Assembly: GCF_026184235.1 (NCBI RefSeq)
Contig: NZ_CP110806.1
Location: forward strand, 4,440,703-4,504,702
DNA length: 64,000 bases
From: Cellulomonas sp. S1-8
Lineage (GTDB): Bacteria > Actinomycetota > Actinomycetes > Actinomycetales > Cellulomonadaceae
Direction of reading: 5' to 3'
Below the pieces are notes generated by a model. It saw nothing but the letters and a program-made list of their open reading frames with translations, ran no database searches and was not told the DNA's origin. This document shows, piece after piece, positions 3,137 to 21,998 of this stretch (positions are counted from its first letter, which is position 1; each line of letters starts with the position of its first letter). Made by a program: the position numbers and the translations under genes.

Positions 3137-3275
3137 GCAACCGCGCTGCTGGGCGGCTCGCGCGCACGACGCCGGCGCTCGACCCGGCATCCCTGACCCC
3201 ACCGTGATGGGATGTCGGGATGACGCAGCCGTCGACGCACCCGGTCCTGCCGCCGTCGCACGTGGGGCTCGACGC

Positions 3276-4133
3276 ATGAGCCGCGTCGTGGTGACCGGCG
3301 GGAGCGGCAAGCTCGGGCGCGCGGTCGTCGAGCACCTGGCGACGCACGGGTACGACGTGGTCAACGTCGACACCGCGCTCCCGCCACAGGGCCAGCAGGC
3401 GGTGTTCAGCCGGGTCGACCTCACCGACCTGGGCCAGGTGACCGAGGCGTTCACGGGCATCGACGACCGGTACGACGGTGTCGACGCGGTGGTCCACCTC
3501 GCGGCCATCCCCGCGCCGGGCCTGCGCCCGAGCGGTGCGACGTTCGCGAACAACGTCGTCGCCACCCACCACGTGTTCAGCGCCGCCCGCCGCGCCGGCA
3601 TCAGGAACGTCGTCTGGGCCTCCAGCGAGACCGTCCTCGGCCTGCCCTTCGACACGCCGCCGCCGTACGTCCCGGTCGACGAGGAGTACGCCGTCCGCCC
3701 GGAGAGCACTTACTCGCTCGGCAAGGCGGTCGAGGAGGAGATGGCCCGGCACTTCACACGCTGGGACCCGGACCTCAAGCTGATCGGCCTGCGGTTCTCC
3801 AACGTGATGGACGTCGGCGACTACGCCGCGTTCCCGGGCTTCGCGGCCGACCCGCGCAGCCGGATCTGGAACCTGTGGGGCTACATCGACGCCCGCGACG
3901 GCGCCCTCGCGGTGCGGCTGGCGCTCGAGAGCGACCTGCGCGGGTTCGAGGCGTTCGTCATCGCGTCACCCGACACGGTGCTGGAGCGGCCGTCGGCGGA
4001 GCTCATCGCCGAGTACTTCCCGGACGTCCCCGTGACCCGCCCGATCGAGGGCCGCGAGACGCTCCTGTCCATCGACAAGGCCCGTCGCCTGCTGGGGTAC
4101 GACCCGCAGCACACGTGGCGCGACGAGGTCTGA
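3276..4133 (+). CDS. NAD(P)-dependent epimerase/dehydratase family protein
   Basis: A 285-residue extended short-chain dehydrogenase. The N-terminal Rossmann motif VVVTGGSGKLG gives the GxxGxxG dinucleotide site, VVHLAAIPAPG is the conserved A-A turn, and YSLGK (near residue 150) supplies the Tyr and Lys of the YxxxK catalytic pair, with SSE upstream as the serine. The fold and length fit NAD-dependent epimerases or dehydratases; the substrate cannot be told. The open frame extends upstream without ATG, but the ATG at 3276 places the Rossmann strand at the usual position. Confidence 0.75.
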   Translation: MSRVVVTGGSGKLGRAVVEHLATHGYDVVNVDTALPPQGQQAVFSRVDLTDLGQVTEAFTGIDDRYDGVDAVVHLAAIPAPGLRPSGATFANNVVATHHVFSAARRAGIRNVVWASSETVLGLPFDTPPPYVPVDEEYAVRPESTYSLGKAVEEEMARHFTRWDPDLKLIGLRFSNVMDVGDYAAFPGFAADPRSRIWNLWGYIDARDGALAVRLALESDLRGFEAFVIASPDTVLERPSAELIAEYFPDVPVTRPIEGRETLLSIDKARRLLGYDPQHTWRDEV

Positions 4134-4783: not shown

Positions 4784-5707
4784 ATGCGCATCCTGATGTT
4801 CGGTCGTGGGGTGATCGCGACGATCTACGGTCGCGTGCTGCACGCCGCCGGGCACGACGTCGAGTTCTACGTGCGTCCGGGTCGCGCTGCGCAGTACGGG
4901 GACGAGGTGCAGCTGGACTGGATCGACGGGCGCCGCAAGCCGTTCGGCCGGCGGGTGCGTGAGTCGTTCCGGACCCCGTTGCGGGAGTCCCTCGACCCGG
5001 GCCACGGCTTCGATCTGATCGTCCTCAGCGTCGGGCACCATCGTCTCGCCGAGGCAGCCGCGTTCCTCGCTCCCCGACTGGGCACGGCGACGGTGCTCGT
5101 GTTCGGCAACCTCTGGGAGGAGCCGCTCACCGCCGCCGCACCGATCCCCGCCGACCAGCTCGTGTTCGGGTTCCCGCAAGGGGGCGGCGGTCTCGGCGAC
5201 GACGGCGTGCTGTCGGGCGCGATCCTGCCCGCCGTCCTCATCGGCACGACGGACGCTCCGCCGACTCGGCGGGAGCAGGAGGTGATCGCCGCCTTCCGCC
5301 AGGCAGGCCTCGCCGTCCGGCAGGAGAAGGACATGCGCGGGTGGCTGTGGCTCCACTTCATCGCCGACGCCGGCATGTTCGACCAGGCGATACGCAGCGG
5401 GTCGCTGGCGCACATGATCGGAGACCGTCGGGCGTTCCGCGACGCGTTCGTGACGACTCGCGAGCTGCTGCCCGTCATCGAGGCTCGGGGCGTCGACCTG
5501 CGCCGGCACCGCGGCGCGACGACGCCGTTCCGGCTGCCCGGCCTGGTCGCCGCGGCGTCCGGGTGGGCGACCTCCCTGATCCCGCTGGCTCGCAGGAGCC
5601 TCGCGGCGCACACGGATCCGCACACCACGGAGGCGCGCGCCGTCCTGGCGGACACGCTGCGCGAAGCGCGCCGGCTCGGCATCCCCACCCCGCGCCTCGA
5701 GCGGTGA
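4784..5707 (+). CDS. Ketopantoate reductase-like NAD(P)-binding protein
   Basis: A 307-residue protein opening with MRILMFGRGVIATIYG, the glycine-rich dinucleotide site of the ApbA/PanE (2-dehydropantoate 2-reductase) family, followed by HDVEFYVRPGR at the end of strand 2. The conserved N-domain stretch LIVLSVGHHRL and a helical C-domain fit the family. In actinobacteria many such paralogues are not the pantothenate enzyme, and this one sits under a dedicated TetR regulator, so a different substrate is likely. The ATG at 4784 is preceded by GGAGAGG. Confidence 0.7.
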   Translation: MRILMFGRGVIATIYGRVLHAAGHDVEFYVRPGRAAQYGDEVQLDWIDGRRKPFGRRVRESFRTPLRESLDPGHGFDLIVLSVGHHRLAEAAAFLAPRLGTATVLVFGNLWEEPLTAAAPIPADQLVFGFPQGGGGLGDDGVLSGAILPAVLIGTTDAPPTRREQEVIAAFRQAGLAVRQEKDMRGWLWLHFIADAGMFDQAIRSGSLAHMIGDRRAFRDAFVTTRELLPVIEARGVDLRRHRGATTPFRLPGLVAAASGWATSLIPLARRSLAAHTDPHTTEARAVLADTLREARRLGIPTPRLER

Positions 5708-15392: not shown

Positions 15393-15737
15393 TCAGCGGG
15401 ACCGACGCGTGACGAGGGCGACCAGCTCCCGGCTGCAGCCCAGCACCTCCGCGATCTCGGAGTAGCTCCACCGCGCGGCGTCCTCGCCGCGGAGCTGGAG
15501 GATGAGGCGGTCGCGCTCCAGGCGGTACCGCGCGGCCACCTCGTCCGCCTCGGCAGCCTTGCGATGGAGCTCGCGCGCCCGGGCGGCCCGAGGATCCGAG
15601 GCGCCCCGACGGGACGGCCGCAGGGGTGTGTCCGAAGGCGCGGGCGCCGACCGTGGGGGCGCCGACCGTGGGGCGGCCCCGTGGTCGGTGCCGCCCCCGG
15701 CCGGCGCGTCGGGCCCGTGCGAGGCCCTAGAGGCCAC
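15393..15737 (-). CDS. Small HTH protein downstream of Ro60
   Basis: A 114-residue protein with a disordered, basic, Pro/Ala-rich N-terminus (about 50 residues), a charged helix (RARELHRKAAEADEVAARYR) and a C-terminal helix-turn-helix resembling sigma region 4 or a Trp-repressor-like fold (WSYSEIAEVLGCSRELVALV). Its start overlaps the end of the Ro60 gene by 11 nt, so translation is coupled. It could regulate the locus or bind one of its RNAs. I recognise no named family. Confidence 0.6.
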   Translation of the reverse strand: MASRASHGPDAPAGGGTDHGAAPRSAPPRSAPAPSDTPLRPSRRGASDPRAARARELHRKAAEADEVAARYRLERDRLILQLRGEDAARWSYSEIAEVLGCSRELVALVTRRSR

Positions 15738-17325
15738 GCGCGAACTCCGTGATGAGCGAGGGCACCGCGCCGTCGAAGCCGACGACGTCGAGCATCCCCG
15801 CGTCCGACGGGTCGGCGATCGAGAAGCCCGTCGCCGTCATGCCGACGACCACGAGCCGCGCGTCGATCCCCGAGCGCCGCCGGTACTCGGCGAGGGCCTG
15901 GTGCGGGTGCACCTTGCCCGCCCAGGTCTCGTTGTCCGTGTAGACCACGAACGTGTCGACCTCGGCGCCCTGCTCGGTCGCCCACACCATCGGCAGCGAG
16001 CAGTCGGTCCCGGCCATCGGCATCGCGTCGACGACGCGCAGGGCGTCGTCGAGCCGCTGCCGCGGCGAGATCGCGAGCGACTGCAGTGCGCTGTCGTGCC
16101 AGCCGCTGCCGCCCTGCCGCGTGGTGAACCCGACGGCGGAGGCCGACGGCTCCGTCGCGAGCTGCACCAGGGCCAGCGCGGCGGACGCCTCGCGGGCCGT
16201 GATCGGCATGCCCGAGATCGGCACGCCCATCGACCCCGAGACGTCGACCGCGAGCAGCGTGCGCTTCCCGGAGGGCTCGACGGCCCCGAACGCCGCGTAG
16301 AACGCGGCATCAAGGGCATCGGTCACCTTCCGGCTCGGCGACCACTCGCCGGCGCCGCGGGCCGACCGCCCGGAGGCGTACGTCCGCTGCGCCACGAGCA
16401 CGCTGACCGGGTGGACGCGCGCCGACCGCAGCCGGCCGGGGTCGACCAGCTGCGCGACGACCTCGTCAGTCCGGCCCCCGAGGTCCGGGAGCATGCCAAG
16501 CCGCGTGAGCCGGGGCAGCTGGCGCATCAGGGCCGTCTGCGGCACGCCGACGTCGAGCAGCGCGTCCCAGACGGCCACCTCGCCCAGCGCCGCGTCGGGG
16601 AGCATCTCCCACGACAGCCGGTGCCGCCGGACGAGGTCGACCCACACCGCGGTCTCCGTGGCGGCCTGCGCCGCCACGAAACCCTCGACGAGCGTCGGCG
16701 TCGCGTCGCCGACCGAGCCCCGGACGATCCAGTCGAACGTCGCCCGCAGCTCCGGCGAGGCCGTCGTCGGGTGGGCCAGACGCAGCAGGTCGCGGTGCGA
16801 CCAGCCCTCACGCTGGCGGTACTTGACCGCCTGGTACGCGAGGGCGTCGGCGTCCTTGGACGTGTACCAGCCGCCGACGGCGCGCCGCAGGCCCCGACCC
16901 CAGCCGCGGAACTGCTCGACGTAGCCCGCGAACAGGAACAGGTGCGTCCCGGTCCGGGCCACGGCCGGCAGCGCCGCGAGCGCGAGCTGTGCCGACTCCG
17001 GCACCGACGCGGCGTACGCCAGGGCGAACAGCGCGGGGTTCTGGCGCGGGGCGGCGCCACGGACGGACACGTCGACGATGGTCCTGACCAGCGTCTCGGG
17101 GTCCTCGTGGGCCATCCGCCCGACGACCTCGGCGTTCTCCCGGGCCAGCTCGCGCGGCGCGGCGTAGTACGTGCCGCCGTCCACGCCGAGGGTCAGGAAG
17201 CGCCGCAGCCGGGCGACGTCGTCGAGCGCGAACGCGTAGCCACCGGCGGCGTTCAGCTCCTGGCGGGTGTCGGCGCGCTCGCTCTGCGGCGTGCGCCGCA
17301 GTCCGAGCGTGCGCAGCACGTCCAT
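15727..17325 (-). CDS. rsr: TROVE/vWA protein, bacterial Ro60 orthologue (Rsr)
   Basis: A 532-residue protein of the Ro60 family, a ring of helical repeats that binds Y RNAs and misfolded RNA 3' ends; in bacteria it works with exonucleases such as PNPase in RNA decay. Residues 1-350 are helical-repeat TROVE sequence (RMAHEDPETLVRTIVDVSVR, GWSHRDLLRLAHPTTASPEL). A C-terminal von Willebrand A domain begins at LLAVDVSGSMG with the DxSxS metal site at 361-365 and continues to VVYTDNETWAGKVHP. The length is normal for the family. GAGAGGAA precedes the ATG at 17325. Four Y-RNA-like hairpins lie immediately upstream on the same strand, which strongly supports the assignment. Expression is probably from a promoter before the RNAs. 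Confidence 0.9.
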   Translation of the reverse strand: MDVLRTLGLRRTPQSERADTRQELNAAGGYAFALDDVARLRRFLTLGVDGGTYYAAPRELARENAEVVGRMAHEDPETLVRTIVDVSVRGAAPRQNPALFALAYAASVPESAQLALAALPAVARTGTHLFLFAGYVEQFRGWGRGLRRAVGGWYTSKDADALAYQAVKYRQREGWSHRDLLRLAHPTTASPELRATFDWIVRGSVGDATPTLVEGFVAAQAATETAVWVDLVRRHRLSWEMLPDAALGEVAVWDALLDVGVPQTALMRQLPRLTRLGMLPDLGGRTDEVVAQLVDPGRLRSARVHPVSVLVAQRTYASGRSARGAGEWSPSRKVTDALDAAFYAAFGAVEPSGKRTLLAVDVSGSMGVPISGMPITAREASAALALVQLATEPSASAVGFTTRQGGSGWHDSALQSLAISPRQRLDDALRVVDAMPMAGTDCSLPMVWATEQGAEVDTFVVYTDNETWAGKVHPHQALAEYRRRSGIDARLVVVGMTATGFSIADPSDAGMLDVVGFDGAVPSLITEFARGL

Positions 17326-17353
17326 CGGTCGTTCCTCTCGGTCGGTCGTCGTG

Positions 17354-17462
17354 GCGGTGGCGGGCGTGGTGCGCGCACCGGGTGGACCCGGCGAACCGGG
17401 CTGCCCTCCTCCGAGGGCGTCCTGAGTGAGAGGAGAACCGATCCGCTCCGGCCCGCCACCGC
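17354..17462 (-). ncRNA. Y-RNA-like RNA 4 (no tRNA-like arms)
   Basis: The ends pair through a 12-bp stem (17451-17462 with 17354-17365, GCGGTGGCGGGC/GCCCGCCACCGC). The inner strands keep the shared motif GGGCCGGAGCGGATCGGTT on the 5' side and CACCACGCCC on the 3' side. The interior has a GCCCTC-GGAG-GAGGGC hairpin and a CCCGG-TTCG-CCGGG hairpin but no T-loop. The last RNA before the Ro60 start codon (29 bases away). The ends are predicted from pairing only. Confidence 0.65.
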
Positions 17463-17474
17463 TCCGACAGGGGT

Positions 17475-17596
17475 GGAGCGGGCGTGTGGTCGCGTCTCCG
17501 GTACGGCGGCTGGTGCCGCCGGGCAGTACCCCGAGGGGTCGGGAGTCGAACCCGCACTGCCATCACCAGGTAACCGAAGACGCTCCGGCCCGCTCC
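17475..17596 (-). ncRNA. Y-RNA-like RNA 3 (T-arm and acceptor hairpin, D-arm replaced)
   Basis: Closing stem GGAGCGGGC (17588-17596) with GCCCGCTCC (17475-17483). The shared 5' motif reads GGGCCGGAG...TTCGGTTACC. Inside a GGCAGT/ACTGCC stem (17556-17561 with 17522-17527) are a T-arm CGGG-TTCGACT-CCCG (17540-17554) and an acceptor-like hairpin ACCC-CTCG-GGGT (17528-17539). Where a D-arm would follow there is a plain GGCGGC-ACCA-GCCGCC hairpin. It is only 8 bases from RNA 2, so the two may be processed from one transcript. Confidence 0.7.
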
Positions 17597-17604
17597 GGGG
17601 AGGC

Positions 17605-17732
17605 TCGGGTGGGCGTGTGATGACGCCGGAGTCCTGCTCTGCCATCTGAGCTACGTCACCGAGGTGACGGCGGGACTCGAACCCGCGACCTGGCCATGAG
17701 GAGTGGTAACCGACAGTCTCCGGCCCACCCGA
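17605..17732 (-). ncRNA. Y-RNA-like RNA 2 with full tRNA-like module (YrlA type)
   Basis: Closing stem TCGGGTGGGC (17723-17732) with GCCCACCCGA (17605-17614); a second helix CGGAG/CTCCG lies inside. After the shared TCGGTTACC the RNA has a canonical T-arm GCGGG-TTCGAGT-CCCGC (17670-17686), a 6-bp acceptor-like stem closed by CTCG (17654-17669), then a D-arm GCTC-AGATGGCA-GAGC (17636-17651). T-arm before D-arm is the permuted order expected when the RNA ends sit at the anticodon position. This is the clearest tRNA mimic of the set. Confidence 0.8.
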
Positions 17733-17841
17733 TTCTCCCCGTGTGCTGTTGTCGTCGAGGACTGTAGGGGTCTACACAGGGCGGCTGGTAGCGCTTTTCT
17801 CCGGTGTCACCCGGGCGGGGTCAGCGAGCCGCGTGCACGAG

Positions 17842-18004
17842 GGCCCGGGCGGGCGTGGTGTGGCCTCCGGAGAGCGACGGCCCCTGACGGGACGGTGCGC
17901 AGTCCGCTGCTCTGACCACTGAGCTACGACGTCGAGACGCCGGAGGGACTCGAACCCTCGACCCGCGGAACCAGGTAACCGATGACCTTCGGCCCGCCCG
18001 GGCC
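17842..18004 (-). ncRNA. Y-RNA-like RNA 1 with full tRNA-like module (YrlA type)
   Basis: A 13-bp closing stem (17992-18004 with 17842-17854) is followed by GGGCCGAAGGTCATCGGTTACC. A T-arm GAGGG-TTCGAGTC-CCTC (17943-17959), an acceptor-like hairpin CGGCGT-CTCG-ACGTCG (17927-17942) and a D-arm GCTC-AGTGGTCA-GAGC (17909-17924) follow in permuted order. The 3' strand ends CCACACCACGCCC before the closing stem. A CATACT hexamer (complement of 18013-18018) just upstream is a possible -10 element. First RNA of the array. Confidence 0.8.
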
Positions 18005-18135
18005 GGGGCGTCAGTATGCCGTCCACGGGGCGTGCGGCGCGCGCGCATCGACGCCCGGACGGAAGGCGGGGGTCGGGCGCCGACCGCGTGAGACGGCCGT
18101 GCCCGGTGACGGTCGACGTCCTACCGTGACGACGC

Positions 18136-19658: not shown

Positions 19659-21998
19659 TCACATCTGCATGTCCACGAACCGCGAGTAGTGCCCCTGGAA
19701 CGCGACGGTGATGGTGTCCGTCGGGCCGTTACGGTGCTTCGCCACGATCAGGTCAGCCTCGCCCGCACGGGGCGATTCCTTCTCATAGGCATCTTCACGA
19801 TGCAAAAGAATAACCATGTCCGCATCTTGCTCGATGCTGCCCGATTCGCGAAGGTCGCTCATCTGCGGCTTCTTGTCCGTGCGCTGCTCGGGACCACGGT
19901 TCAGCTGCGAGATCGCGATCACGGGGACCTCGATCTCCTTCGCGAGCAGCTTGAGGGCTCGCGAGAACTCCGATACCTCCTGCTGGCGGGACTCGACGCG
20001 CTTGCCGGACGTCATGAGCTGCAGGTAGTCGATGACGACCAGCTTGAGGTCGTGGCGCTGCTTGAGGCGCCGGCACTTGGCGCGGATCTCCATGAGCGAC
20101 ATGTTGGGCGAGTCGTCGATGAACAGCGGGGCCTCGCTGATGCGGCCCATGGTCGCGGCGATCTTCGCCCAGTCGTCCTCGGCCATGGCACCCGTGCGCA
20201 GCTTCTGCAGGTGCACGCGCGCCTCGGCGGACAGCAGACGCATCGTGATCTCGTTGCGGCTCATCTCGAGCGAGAAGACGACGGCCGCCATGTTGTGCTT
20301 GATGGCCGACGACCGCACGATGTCGATGCCGAGCGTGGAGTTGTGTGTGGGGATCATCGACGGGCCCGCGAGGTACAGGTGCGAGGCGTGGTCGATCTCG
20401 ACGCAACGCACCGGGACCGACGCCACCGGCTCGACCGACACGACGAAGCGCTGGTGCAGTCGCTGCGTGGACGGACGGCGCCGCTCCTTGTGCACGAGCT
20501 TCTTGCGCTCGAGCGCGAACACGTCGTCGTCCGTCGTGAACGTGATCGTGAAGCACGTCGACGACGCGGCCGAGCGCCCCCGCACCTGCTTGACGGACCA
20601 CCCCGTCCGGTATCCGAGCGAGTGCACCAGCTCGCGGACGTCGCGTGCCAGTCGCTCGTCCGTGACGGCGAACTGCACCGACCCGGTCGGGTTCACCGTC
20701 CCGCTGGTGTCGAGCAGGCCTGCGAGCAGGTCACGACGCTGCGCTTCGCTCCCCCGCAGGTAGTCGACCGGGATGTGCCGGCGAACCAGGACACCGATCG
20801 CCTCGAACCCGGCCTTCGCCTGCGACGGCTCGTACCCCCGCCCCTCGATCCGCATCGCGATCTCAGGGTCCGCGCTCGTGAACCGCGCCGACGAGGAGTG
20901 CCCGTCGCCCAGCCACACCCCCAGCAGGTACGGGTCGACCAGCAGGTCCCGCTCGGGCAGCGACAGCGGCGCGGCCGTCGCGACAGCGTGGTTGGCCCGC
21001 CCGTCCGATGTCGCGCACCGCACCGTCGCAGCCAGCTGCTCGGTCGTCCTGACCCCAAAGTCGGCGCCCACCCGACGCTCCGCCCGCGTCCGCGTCACCC
21101 ACTGGTGCTGCGCGTCCGCGACGACCGTCGAGCCGTCGTCGAAGGTCACGCGGTAGCAGGGGCGGTCGACCATGACGTCGGTGGTACGGACGACGCGCGT
21201 GATGGTGCCGTCCGCGGCGATCAGCCGGTCCCCGGCCCGCACCTCGCCCATCGTCGTCCACCCCGTGGGCGTGGGCAGCGGGGTGTCGAGCGCGAGCGCC
21301 TTGCCGATAGCCGGACGCGCCGCCAGCACGATCATCTGCCCCGGGTGGAGCCCGTTCGTCAGCCGGTCGAGATCAGCGAAGCCCGTCGGCACGCCGATCA
21401 TGCCCTCCCCGCGGTGGCCGGCGCGCTCGATCTCGTCGACGGTCCCGCCGATGACCTCGGACAGCGGCAGGTAGTCCTCAGACGCTCGACGCTCGGTGAC
21501 CGCGTACACCTCGGCCTGCGCGTTGTTGACCAGCTCGTCGACGTCGCCGCCGTCGGTCGCGTAGCCGAGCTGCACGATGCGCGTGCCCGCCTCGACGAGC
21601 TTGCGCAGGATCGAGCGCTCGCGCACGATCCGCGCGTAGAAGCCCGCGTTGGCGGCGGTCGGCACACCCGCGATGAGCGTGTGCAGGTACGACGGGCCGC
21701 CGATGCGGGTGATCTCGCCGCGCTTGGTCAGCTCGTCGGAGACGGTGATGGCGTCGGCGGGCTCGCCGCGCCCGTACAGGTCGAGGACCGCGTCGTAGAT
21801 GACCTCGTGCGCGGGGCGGTAGAAATCGGTGCCCTTGATCTGCTCGATGACGTCGGCGATGGCGTCCTTGCTGATCATCATGCCGCCGAGCACGGACCGC
21901 TCGGCCTCGAGGTCCTGCGGCGGGGTGCGGTCGAAACCGCTGCCGCTGCTGCGCCCGCTGTCCGGCGGCGCGCCGTACTCGAGGTCCTCGATGGTCAC
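19659..21998 (-). CDS. dnaB: Replicative DNA helicase DnaB, intein-containing
   Basis: A 779-residue precursor. Residues 1-233 hold the N-terminal primase-interacting domain (AERSVLGGMMISKDAI, YARIVRERSILRKLVEAGT) and the start of the RecA-like domain (IGVPTGFADLDRLTNGLHPG). The Walker A motif ARPAIGK is split after its lysine by a 320-residue intein, and resumes as STLGID. The C-extein has Walker B VVIDYLQLM, the H4-type AISQLNRGPEQR and an arginine-rich end, all normal. The mature protein would be 459 residues, the family's usual size. Because the break is in the ATP loop, the helicase is inactive until splicing. It starts at GTG 21998, downstream of a DnaA-box-bearing intergenic region. 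Confidence 0.95.
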   Translation of the reverse strand: MTIEDLEYGAPPDSGRSSGSGFDRTPPQDLEAERSVLGGMMISKDAIADVIEQIKGTDFYRPAHEVIYDAVLDLYGRGEPADAITVSDELTKRGEITRIGGPSYLHTLIAGVPTAANAGFYARIVRERSILRKLVEAGTRIVQLGYATDGGDVDELVNNAQAEVYAVTERRASEDYLPLSEVIGGTVDEIERAGHRGEGMIGVPTGFADLDRLTNGLHPGQMIVLAARPAIGKALALDTPLPTPTGWTTMGEVRAGDRLIAADGTITRVVRTTDVMVDRPCYRVTFDDGSTVVADAQHQWVTRTRAERRVGADFGVRTTEQLAATVRCATSDGRANHAVATAAPLSLPERDLLVDPYLLGVWLGDGHSSSARFTSADPEIAMRIEGRGYEPSQAKAGFEAIGVLVRRHIPVDYLRGSEAQRRDLLAGLLDTSGTVNPTGSVQFAVTDERLARDVRELVHSLGYRTGWSVKQVRGRSAASSTCFTITFTTDDDVFALERKKLVHKERRRPSTQRLHQRFVVSVEPVASVPVRCVEIDHASHLYLAGPSMIPTHNSTLGIDIVRSSAIKHNMAAVVFSLEMSRNEITMRLLSAEARVHLQKLRTGAMAEDDWAKIAATMGRISEAPLFIDDSPNMSLMEIRAKCRRLKQRHDLKLVVIDYLQLMTSGKRVESRQQEVSEFSRALKLLAKEIEVPVIAISQLNRGPEQRTDKKPQMSDLRESGSIEQDADMVILLHREDAYEKESPRAGEADLIVAKHRNGPTDTITVAFQGHYSRFVDMQM
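20340..21299 (-). mobile_element. DnaB intein (class 3 features, damaged LAGLIDADG)
   Basis: Intein residues 1-320 of the DnaB precursor. It begins with Ala (ALALDTPLPT), has no Cys/Ser nucleophile at position 1, and carries the class 3 triad: Trp67 (AQHQWVT, block B), Cys299 (VRCVEID, block F) and Thr318 (IPTHN, block G). It ends His-Asn before a Ser. A homing-endonuclease domain has LLGVWLGDGH (acidic Asp132 kept) and LLAGLLDTSGTV, where the second catalytic acid is Ser199. Splicing looks intact; DNA cleavage is probably impaired. Confidence 0.85.

Follow-up and report, generated by a model that had tools for sequence, protein, structure and literature searches.

A Cellulomonas Ro60 locus with four Y RNAs in tandem and a proposed helix-turn-helix regulator

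Why should a single Ro60 gene be preceded by four different Y RNAs, and how might such a locus be controlled? The question is raised by a stretch of 64,000 nucleotides from Cellulomonas sp. S1-8, hereafter the window, which is the final 64 kb of a single 4.5-Mb contig (NZ_CP110806.1, positions 4,440,703 to 4,504,702). Read 5′ to 3′ on the minus strand, on which all window features described below lie, the order is that of four structured RNAs (Y1, Y2, Y3 and Y4), the Ro60 gene, and a gene for a small helix-turn-helix (HTH) protein. We consider it fairly probable that this is a Ro60 ribonucleoprotein operon, in which the four Y RNAs form a set of adaptors and the HTH protein represses by way of a palindrome.

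The Ro60 (Rsr) gene (15727..17325, 532 aa) had been read as a TROVE/vWA gene in an earlier note on this DNA, and the identification is sound. Both Pfam domains are present (TROVE, expectation value (E) 1.4e-42; vWA_Ro60, 5.8e-62), and homology extends across the full length to Rsr of Deinococcus radiodurans (PDB 2nvo, E 7.8e-116) and to human RO60 (9nen, E 9.3e-100). The NCBIfam equivalog model NF041674 (RNA-bind_Rsr) is matched at 514 bits, below its cut-off of 900. Alignment of the upstream DNA points to a purine-rich sequence, GAGAGGA (17333..17339), as the probable ribosome-binding site. Ro60 was found in 10 of the 81 genomes of the genus, in 5 of 296 genomes sampled across the class, and in 340 of 50,697 phage records. 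Comparisons below were made with the window and 80 named loci, which are the best 80 of the 107 Ro60 loci found and some of which end at contig edges; among these 80, the closest named relatives by Ro60 are Cellulomonas. Two of the Ro60 translations contain in-frame stops over the matched stretch (three in L086, one in L061), which may be frameshifts or edges of the match.

Upstream of Ro60, the four segments that the earlier note had seen closed by stems of 9-13 bp do have outer stems of 13, 10, 9 and 12 bp. Y1 (17842..18004) carries, inside its 13-bp closing stem, a T arm GAGGGTTCGAGTCCCTC (17943..17959, helix 3 of alignment A1), an acceptor-like hairpin, a D arm GCTCAGTGGTCAGAGC (17909..17924, helix 5 of the same alignment) and an additional 3′ insert. 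Y2 (17605..17732, 10-bp closing stem) has the same series of T arm (17670..17686), acceptor-like hairpin and D arm (17636..17651), both arms being read from the sequence. Y3 (17475..17596, 9-bp closing stem, alignment A3) retains the T arm and the acceptor-like hairpin, and a GC hairpin (17521-17504) replaces the D arm. In Y4 (17354..17462, 12-bp closing stem), two stable hairpins (17418-17403 and 17401-17386) replace both the T and D arms. The permuted tRNA-like module is complete in Y1 and Y2, where it aligns to positions 23-88 and 24-84 of the Rfam YrlA model, reduced to its T-arm part in Y3, and without either arm in Y4.

The inner sequences are shared. A 5′ motif, GGGCCGRAG-N4-TCGGTT, occurs as previously described in Y1, Y2 and Y4, and the spacing given for it is inexact for Y3, which has N5; it is followed by ACC in Y1 to Y3, in agreement with the three RNAs counted earlier. 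Two related 3′ strands close the structures, CCACGCCC in Y1 and Y4 and ACACGCCC in Y2 and Y3, again as claimed. All four RNAs contain the lower-stem motif GGNCCGAAG...CGGUUA in the form GGGCCGRAG plus CGGTT, with CGGTTC in Y4. From the literature on Y RNAs, this lower-stem motif would be the place at which Ro60 binds.

Are the stems conserved as stems? For a comparison with relatives, 114 RNAs of the window and the 80 named loci were located from internal sequence motifs alone, and the next 8 positions outward were scored. Watson-Crick pairs were formed at 5.95 of the 8 positions, against 3.40 when the partner was a 3′ strand from another locus and 3.40 when it came from another RNA of the same locus. 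With the 91 distinct stems the value was 5.71, compared to a permutation mean of 3.29 and a maximum of 3.79 in 10,000 permutations. The test includes one motif match of the window, 848 nt ahead of Ro60, that is probably spurious. Because the outer-stem rows of alignments A1 to A3 were picked by a search rewarding stem pairing, the motif-only test, and not the covariation of A1, is the clean test of the outer stems. We conclude that the end-joining stems are maintained by pairing and not by sequence.

Covariation was scored on the aligned classes. In the tRNA-like class (41 sequences), 94.4% of the cells are paired, and the covariation score is 0.384, compared to 0.144 for shuffled and 0.06-0.11 for slid alignments. 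With the exception of the two-sided changes discussed below, all whole-structure scores lie above all 500 shuffles. Helices 1-4 covary; the D stem is nearly invariant (4 pairs, 98.2% paired, zero two-sided changes), and pairing is poorest in the acceptor-like hairpin (85.7%). For the Y4 class (20 sequences), 92.7% of the cells are paired, and two-sided changes affect 15 of 31 pairs, against 8.8 in shuffled alignments; this class exceeds the shuffles by every measure, further pair types being reached by 3 shuffles in 500. The compensatory change previously proposed for the stems is therefore supported, pairing being beyond chance and the helices covarying.

How common are such arrays? They were counted with R1, a covariance model of the tRNA-like class whose training set includes Y1 and Y2 of the window, and 195 of its 207 matches were used. 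Those dropped are the 4 window rows, 4 rows of L009/L010, the match of L083, and the matches of L087, L090 and L062 (E 0.06-0.14). L083 was counted as having zero Y RNAs because its match (E 0.014) overlaps the matched Ro60 stretch. R1 matches were counted up to E 0.037, so that isolated weak ones may be false. Matches of R2, the covariance model of the Y4 class (trained with Y4 of the window), were left out; they would add a fourth RNA to L087 (E 0.008) and a third to L084 (E 0.038). With these rules the 80 named loci contain four Y RNA matches in 19 cases, three in 15, two in 32, one in 10 and none in 4. Arrays of three or four, present in 34 of 80 loci, are thus common in this part of the actinobacteria, and four tandem Y RNAs also occur in an M. 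abscessus prophage record. The earlier view that four in tandem is unusual is not borne out. In the prophage prophiGD43A-5 (L125), an annotated tRNA-Thr (1750-1828) coincides with the beginning of an R1 match (1752-1891, 103.6 bits), and is probably a Y RNA, the first of four in tandem.

What does recur is the order within the array. For classification by T and D arms, loci with less than 900 nt upstream were set aside; the rule for calling the arms was changed once, a stricter version being used for the order test because the first D pattern was too loose. Of the 74 loci that extend 900 nt or more upstream and contain any Y RNA, 66 possess a complete tRNA-like RNA; where several RNAs are present, 64 of 65 loci include one or more that lack the full module. 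Towards Ro60, tRNA-likeness falls in 131 pairs and rises in 19 (66 loci), and none of 10,000 shuffles scored as high. When one pattern was kept per genus label (34 labels, each metagenome-assembled genome (MAG) being separate), 68 pairs fall and 15 rise, again with 0 of 10,000 shuffles. The full order, two RNAs with both arms, one with the T arm only and one with neither, recurs in 8 of the named loci (3 Cellulomonas, Micropruina, Nocardia carnea and 3 MAGs), plus the window. The graded loss of the tRNA-like part noted earlier therefore holds, both in the window and among its relatives.

Among the eight close loci of the genus, the window's own (L001) included, Y2 and Y4 are always present, and Y1 is lost in two (L003 and L006) and Y3 in three (L002, where a shortened remnant is left, L004 and L006). 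In L003, an unrelated sequence, perhaps a mobile element, cuts off Y1 and spares just its 3′ strand. As judged by eye, the final RNA of Arachnia has a linker, CCCTCTCACGGAA, in common with the Y4-class RNA of Nocardioides (L018), yet a T arm is still present in it; this points to loss of the module in the Y4 class.

We turn to the small gene that follows Ro60 (15393..15737, 114 aa). It overlaps the Ro60 stop by 11 nt, so that the coupling noted earlier stands; the idea that it simply completes the locus falls short, since its presence tracks a palindrome lying before the Y RNAs. The structure model shows a disordered start, a long helix (49-85) and the two HTH helices (92-99 and 103-113), with block means of the predicted local distance difference test of 93-98 from residue 51 on. 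A homolog lies immediately after Ro60 in 27 of the 76 loci with sufficient flanks. Within the genus the gene is found in 8 of 81 genomes, close relatives that all carry Ro60. Across the class it is found in 2 of 296 genomes, that of the window and G306, in which it follows a Ro60 remnant, and among 50,697 phage records 6 have a match (E≤0.01), each directly after a Ro-like gene. Loci with the HTH gene have a mean of 3.07 Y RNAs, and those without it 2.10, kinship being uncorrected. The G306 locus is decayed: in its remnant (L119, G306:C30, 3829-4110) part of a Ro60 C-terminus precedes the last stretch of the HTH gene, the palindrome is absent, and the surrounding L114 and L118 contain no Y RNA match.

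The palindrome was exposed by aligning the DNA before Y2 in ten Cellulomonas-type loci, which gave TGTAGACCCCTACA. The same sequence occurs in Nocardioides and propionibacterial loci, and with its middle reversed in Actinomyces; other loci with the HTH gene have variants such as GTGTAACGCGTTACAC. In the window it reads GTGTAGACCCCTACAG (17762..17777), the consensus being GTGTA-N6-TACAC, and this operator-like element was scored by the number of its 10 letters matched. Among the 27 loci with the HTH gene, 20 score 10, 5 score 9 and 2 score 8; among the 49 without it, the maximum is 8, in four loci, and none reaches 9. When the DNA was shuffled, 0.8% of loci had a best score of 9 and 17% one of 8. 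This count omits four loci with short flanks, L033, which carries the palindrome, L037, L038, and L056, which carries the HTH gene. The arms extend up to 12 bp, with the innermost pair broken in Arachnia (L035 and L036). A Y RNA match begins no more than 42 nt from the palindrome in 26 of the 27 loci; the palindrome of Labedaea (L046) lies between the Y RNA and Ro60. The HTH protein would be a dedicated regulator of the Ro60 operon, probably a repressor.

Candidate promoters are found at two places. The right arm of the palindrome contains a candidate −10 element, TACAGT (17761..17766), which may mark the start of a unit comprising Y2, Y3, Y4, Ro60 and the HTH gene; a largely conserved leader, CGACGACAACAG (17746..17757 in the alignment of the ten Cellulomonas-type loci), separates the palindrome from Y2. 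A second candidate −10, CATACT (18013..18018), stands directly before Y1 in the alignment of the DNA upstream of Y1 from 10 loci, and suggests that Y1 has a separate promoter.

These elements can be assembled as follows. One Ro60 ring would be served by four Y RNAs, which would have in common the lower stem that binds Ro60 and would differ in the module they display: the full permuted tRNA-like form in Y1 and Y2, its T-arm half in Y3, and plain stable hairpins in Y4. Binding through the lower stem would gate the outer surface of Ro60, and the displayed module would determine whether, say, a tRNA-modifying enzyme or the nuclease PNPase is recruited as a partner. Y2, Y3, Y4, Ro60 and the HTH gene are probably transcribed as one RNA that is later cut apart, and Y1 probably from its own promoter. 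A dimer of the HTH protein, sitting on GTGTA-N6-TACAC over the −10 site, would repress the operon until a signal releases it. On this inference the composition of the particle pool would depend on the array, and the HTH protein would keep the main unit down. The computations establish the RNA structures, their classes and order, and the co-occurrence of Y RNA with Ro60 and of the HTH gene with the palindrome; Ro60 binding, processing, the role of the modules and repression belong to our interpretation.

A number of observations weigh against this proposal. In the tRNA-like class, 17 of 33 pairs show two-sided changes, compared to 14.0 in shuffles, and 20 shuffles of 500 reach that value. The order rule has its 19 contrary pairs, and the final RNA is fully tRNA-like in Arachnia and Myceligenerans. 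The Rfam YrlA model has no match at its gathering score in the window or in those relatives' loci that were scanned, 14 of the 80, and a simple scan of the window found no consensus sigma-70 promoter pair and no intrinsic terminator. The palindrome pattern was defined on the very loci in which it was counted. A fresh test in phages having the HTH gene gave scores of 9 for Cashline and BearBQ, 8 for Sparky and Farewell, which are near copies, and 7 for prophiGD43A-5, so that four of the five examined carry it and one failed; shuffled 100-nt stretches contain a site scoring at least 9 in 0.2% of cases and one scoring at least 8 in 2.5%. Among phages without the gene, FuzzBuster, Mareelih, Cursive and Comrade score 7, and LinStu and Phabba have sites of 8/10, near −880 and far from the Y RNA match; the bacterial loci L009, L010 and L115-L117, also without the gene, reach 7. 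On a Ro60 tree built by a quick method, the HTH gene and the palindrome (score of at least 9) change seven times each, which speaks for their link; of four independent pairs on well supported branches, however, 3 or 4 agree (p 0.125-0.25), and four pairs are too few for significance.

The family assignment of the HTH protein is also weak, and here the first alternative comes in. The protein stays below the Pfam gathering scores for Sigma70_r4 (20.6 against 24.1 bits) and HTH_23 (19.4 against 24.6 bits), and a PDB sequence search with its family returned three matches at chance level (E 0.17-0.93). Of the 23 homologs of the family (A4), HTH_23 matches 6 at E≤0.001 and MRP-L20, a Pfam family of mitochondrial ribosomal proteins, matches 22 at the same limit, the best at E 2.9e-8. 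Instead of repressing, the protein may activate transcription, act like a sigma factor or serve the Ro60 particle as an RNA-binding adaptor, or the palindrome may be read by another protein. The weak Sigma70_r4 and HTH_23 matches would fit this, as would the lack of a consensus −35/−10 pair and the state of the right arm, which has TANNNT in only 18 of the 27 loci with the HTH gene and TACACA in the other nine, a point that also counts against our own proposal. We nevertheless find these possibilities rather unlikely: the palindrome is symmetrical and goes with the HTH gene, as would suit a partner that binds DNA as a dimer, and its overlap with the candidate −10 suits repression more than activation. 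A wider regulon is unsupported. The palindrome allowing at most one mismatch has three sites in the own genome, that of the locus and two with one mismatch, and a reversed-pattern control also has three; no second site within one mismatch of TGTAGNCCCCTACA was found in that genome.

The second alternative concerns the array itself, which could act mainly in cis. Y2 to Y4 would then be a structured leader of the Ro60 mRNA, bound by Ro60 so as to control translation or decay, with free Y RNAs as by-products. The spacing is compatible with this, as 14 nt separate the end of Y4 from the ribosome-binding site, and the gaps between Y2 and Y3 (8 nt) and between Y3 and Y4 (12 nt) are too small for separate promoters. 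However, Y1 lies outside the proposed unit with a candidate −10 of its own, and in 11 of the 27 loci with the HTH gene a tRNA-like Y RNA likewise precedes the palindrome and falls beyond the proposed leader. Known bacterial Y RNAs moreover act as separate RNAs, according to PMC4726728 and PMC8394870. We therefore hold the cis-acting leader to be improbable compared with the adaptor operon.

Whether the RNAs are specific to the locus was examined with the two models, Y3 being in neither training set. In the own genome, where 150 of 7,165 first-look candidates were scored, R1 recovers all four sites: Y1 (99.3 bits) and Y2 (125 bits), both members of its training set, and Y3 (44.9 bits, E 4e-5) and Y4 (40 bits, E 3e-4), which are not. 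R2 recovers three of the four at E<0.001 (Y4, its training member, at 103.6 bits), with Y3 at E 0.24, and neither model finds another full-length Y RNA site in this genome at E<0.001. Over the genus, R1 matches 11 of the 81 genomes, the 10 Ro60 carriers and G055 (model positions 31-110 only), so that Ro60 and a full-length Y RNA occur in the identical 10 genomes; R2 matches 9 of 81, every one with Ro60. In G052:C69, two full-length Y RNA matches (3251-3397 and 4894-5041) lie about 1.6 kb apart.

The next three R1 matches in the own genome (G000:C1:3587971-3588087, 3226903-3227039 and 3315926-3316062; E 0.005-0.55, covering model positions 28-31 to 110) fall where one tRNA gene adjoins another, and two more have E 0.58 and 0.88. 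Reading across such a junction, one meets the T arm of a first tRNA and then the D arm of a second, as in the permuted module of the Y RNAs, and the module may have originated from a junction of this type. This order, and the nature of the three checked off-locus matches, could be taken to mean that the four segments are themselves decayed tandem tRNA genes, or else chance GC-rich stems, but we reject this as scarcely credible: ARAGORN finds zero tRNAs in the window, the off-locus matches are without the closing and lower stems that the array RNAs possess, and the array RNAs covary and co-occur with Ro60.

The Y RNA identity of the array is of an already known kind. A search with the Rfam Y RNA models, as the earlier note had suggested, gave YrlA matches below threshold only: at gathering scores nothing in the window is matched, and YrlA (RF02553) gives 43 bits for Y2 and 40 bits for Y1, against a gathering score of 69. 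YrlA, known from Salmonella, is alike in its long terminal stem and its position next to a Ro60 gene and, as far as Y1 and Y2 are concerned, in its permuted T arm, acceptor-like hairpin and D arm. The differences are that the window has four graded RNAs in tandem, all below the Rfam gathering score, and that these lie upstream of Ro60, whereas the Salmonella operon is rsr-yrlBA-rtcBA (PMC7790460). That RNA-repair operon resembles ours in that a regulator is dedicated to Ro60 and its Y RNAs, here a proposed one; there, however, the regulator is RtcR, which senses tRNA fragments, and rtcBA genes are present, whereas here the regulator would be a small HTH protein and its palindrome overlaps a candidate −10. 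Neither rtcB nor rtcA was matched among the 5 neighbouring open reading frames scanned with Pfam. Upstream, the gene for the DnaB replicative helicase (19659-21998) looks split by an intein, its reading frame having DnaB_C in two stretches and weak LAGLIDADG_3 and Hom_end matches at 420-491.

Other relatives are more distant. The Y RNA of D. radiodurans (RF01053) has a lower-stem consensus, GGgCCGaAG...CGGUUaC, that aligns to Y3, but taken as a whole the match is no better than chance (18.7 bits against a gathering score of 80, E 1.5). The nematode stem-bulge RNA family ceN72-3_ceN74-2 (RF01656) is matched by the T-only Y RNA of Nocardia carnea (L048 3759-3868) at 42 bits, with a gathering score of 38; the window RNAs do not match it. 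The Ro60/Rsr proteins of known structure (2nvo, 1yvp and 9nen) are full-length TROVE and vWA homologs; what differs here is the overlapping HTH gene after Ro60 and the palindrome before Y2. In D. radiodurans, Y RNA tethers the Ro60 ring to PNPase (PMC4726728); the ring binds Y RNA through its lower stem, and tRNA-modifying enzymes act on YrlA (PMC4726728 and PMC8394870). Y RNAs are described as components of the Ro60 particles of Propionibacterium propionicum (PMC11277228). Arachnia propionica has two loci in our set, with four Y RNA matches each. We take it to be the present name of P. propionicum. Chen reportedly observed in 2014 that Y RNAs lie near Ro60 in many species, with at least one per species having a tRNA-like domain. 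We found no description of the ordered array, the HTH partner or the palindrome in the literature searched, which did not cover the main bacterial Y RNA papers, so that part of this may be in print.

For the biology of these particles, a series running from a full tRNA mimic to none within one operon offers modules that can be swapped and compared. The proposed regulator and its operator would give a handle for finding the signal that induces Ro60 particles, and may help to recognise loci in genomes and phages whose Y RNAs are missed by Rfam at gathering scores, such as those of the window and the 14 relatives' loci. More broadly, the chances seem to us evenly balanced that actinobacteria and some phages carry self-regulated sets of exchangeable Ro60 adaptors, with up to four ordered Y RNAs, an HTH autoregulator and its operator.

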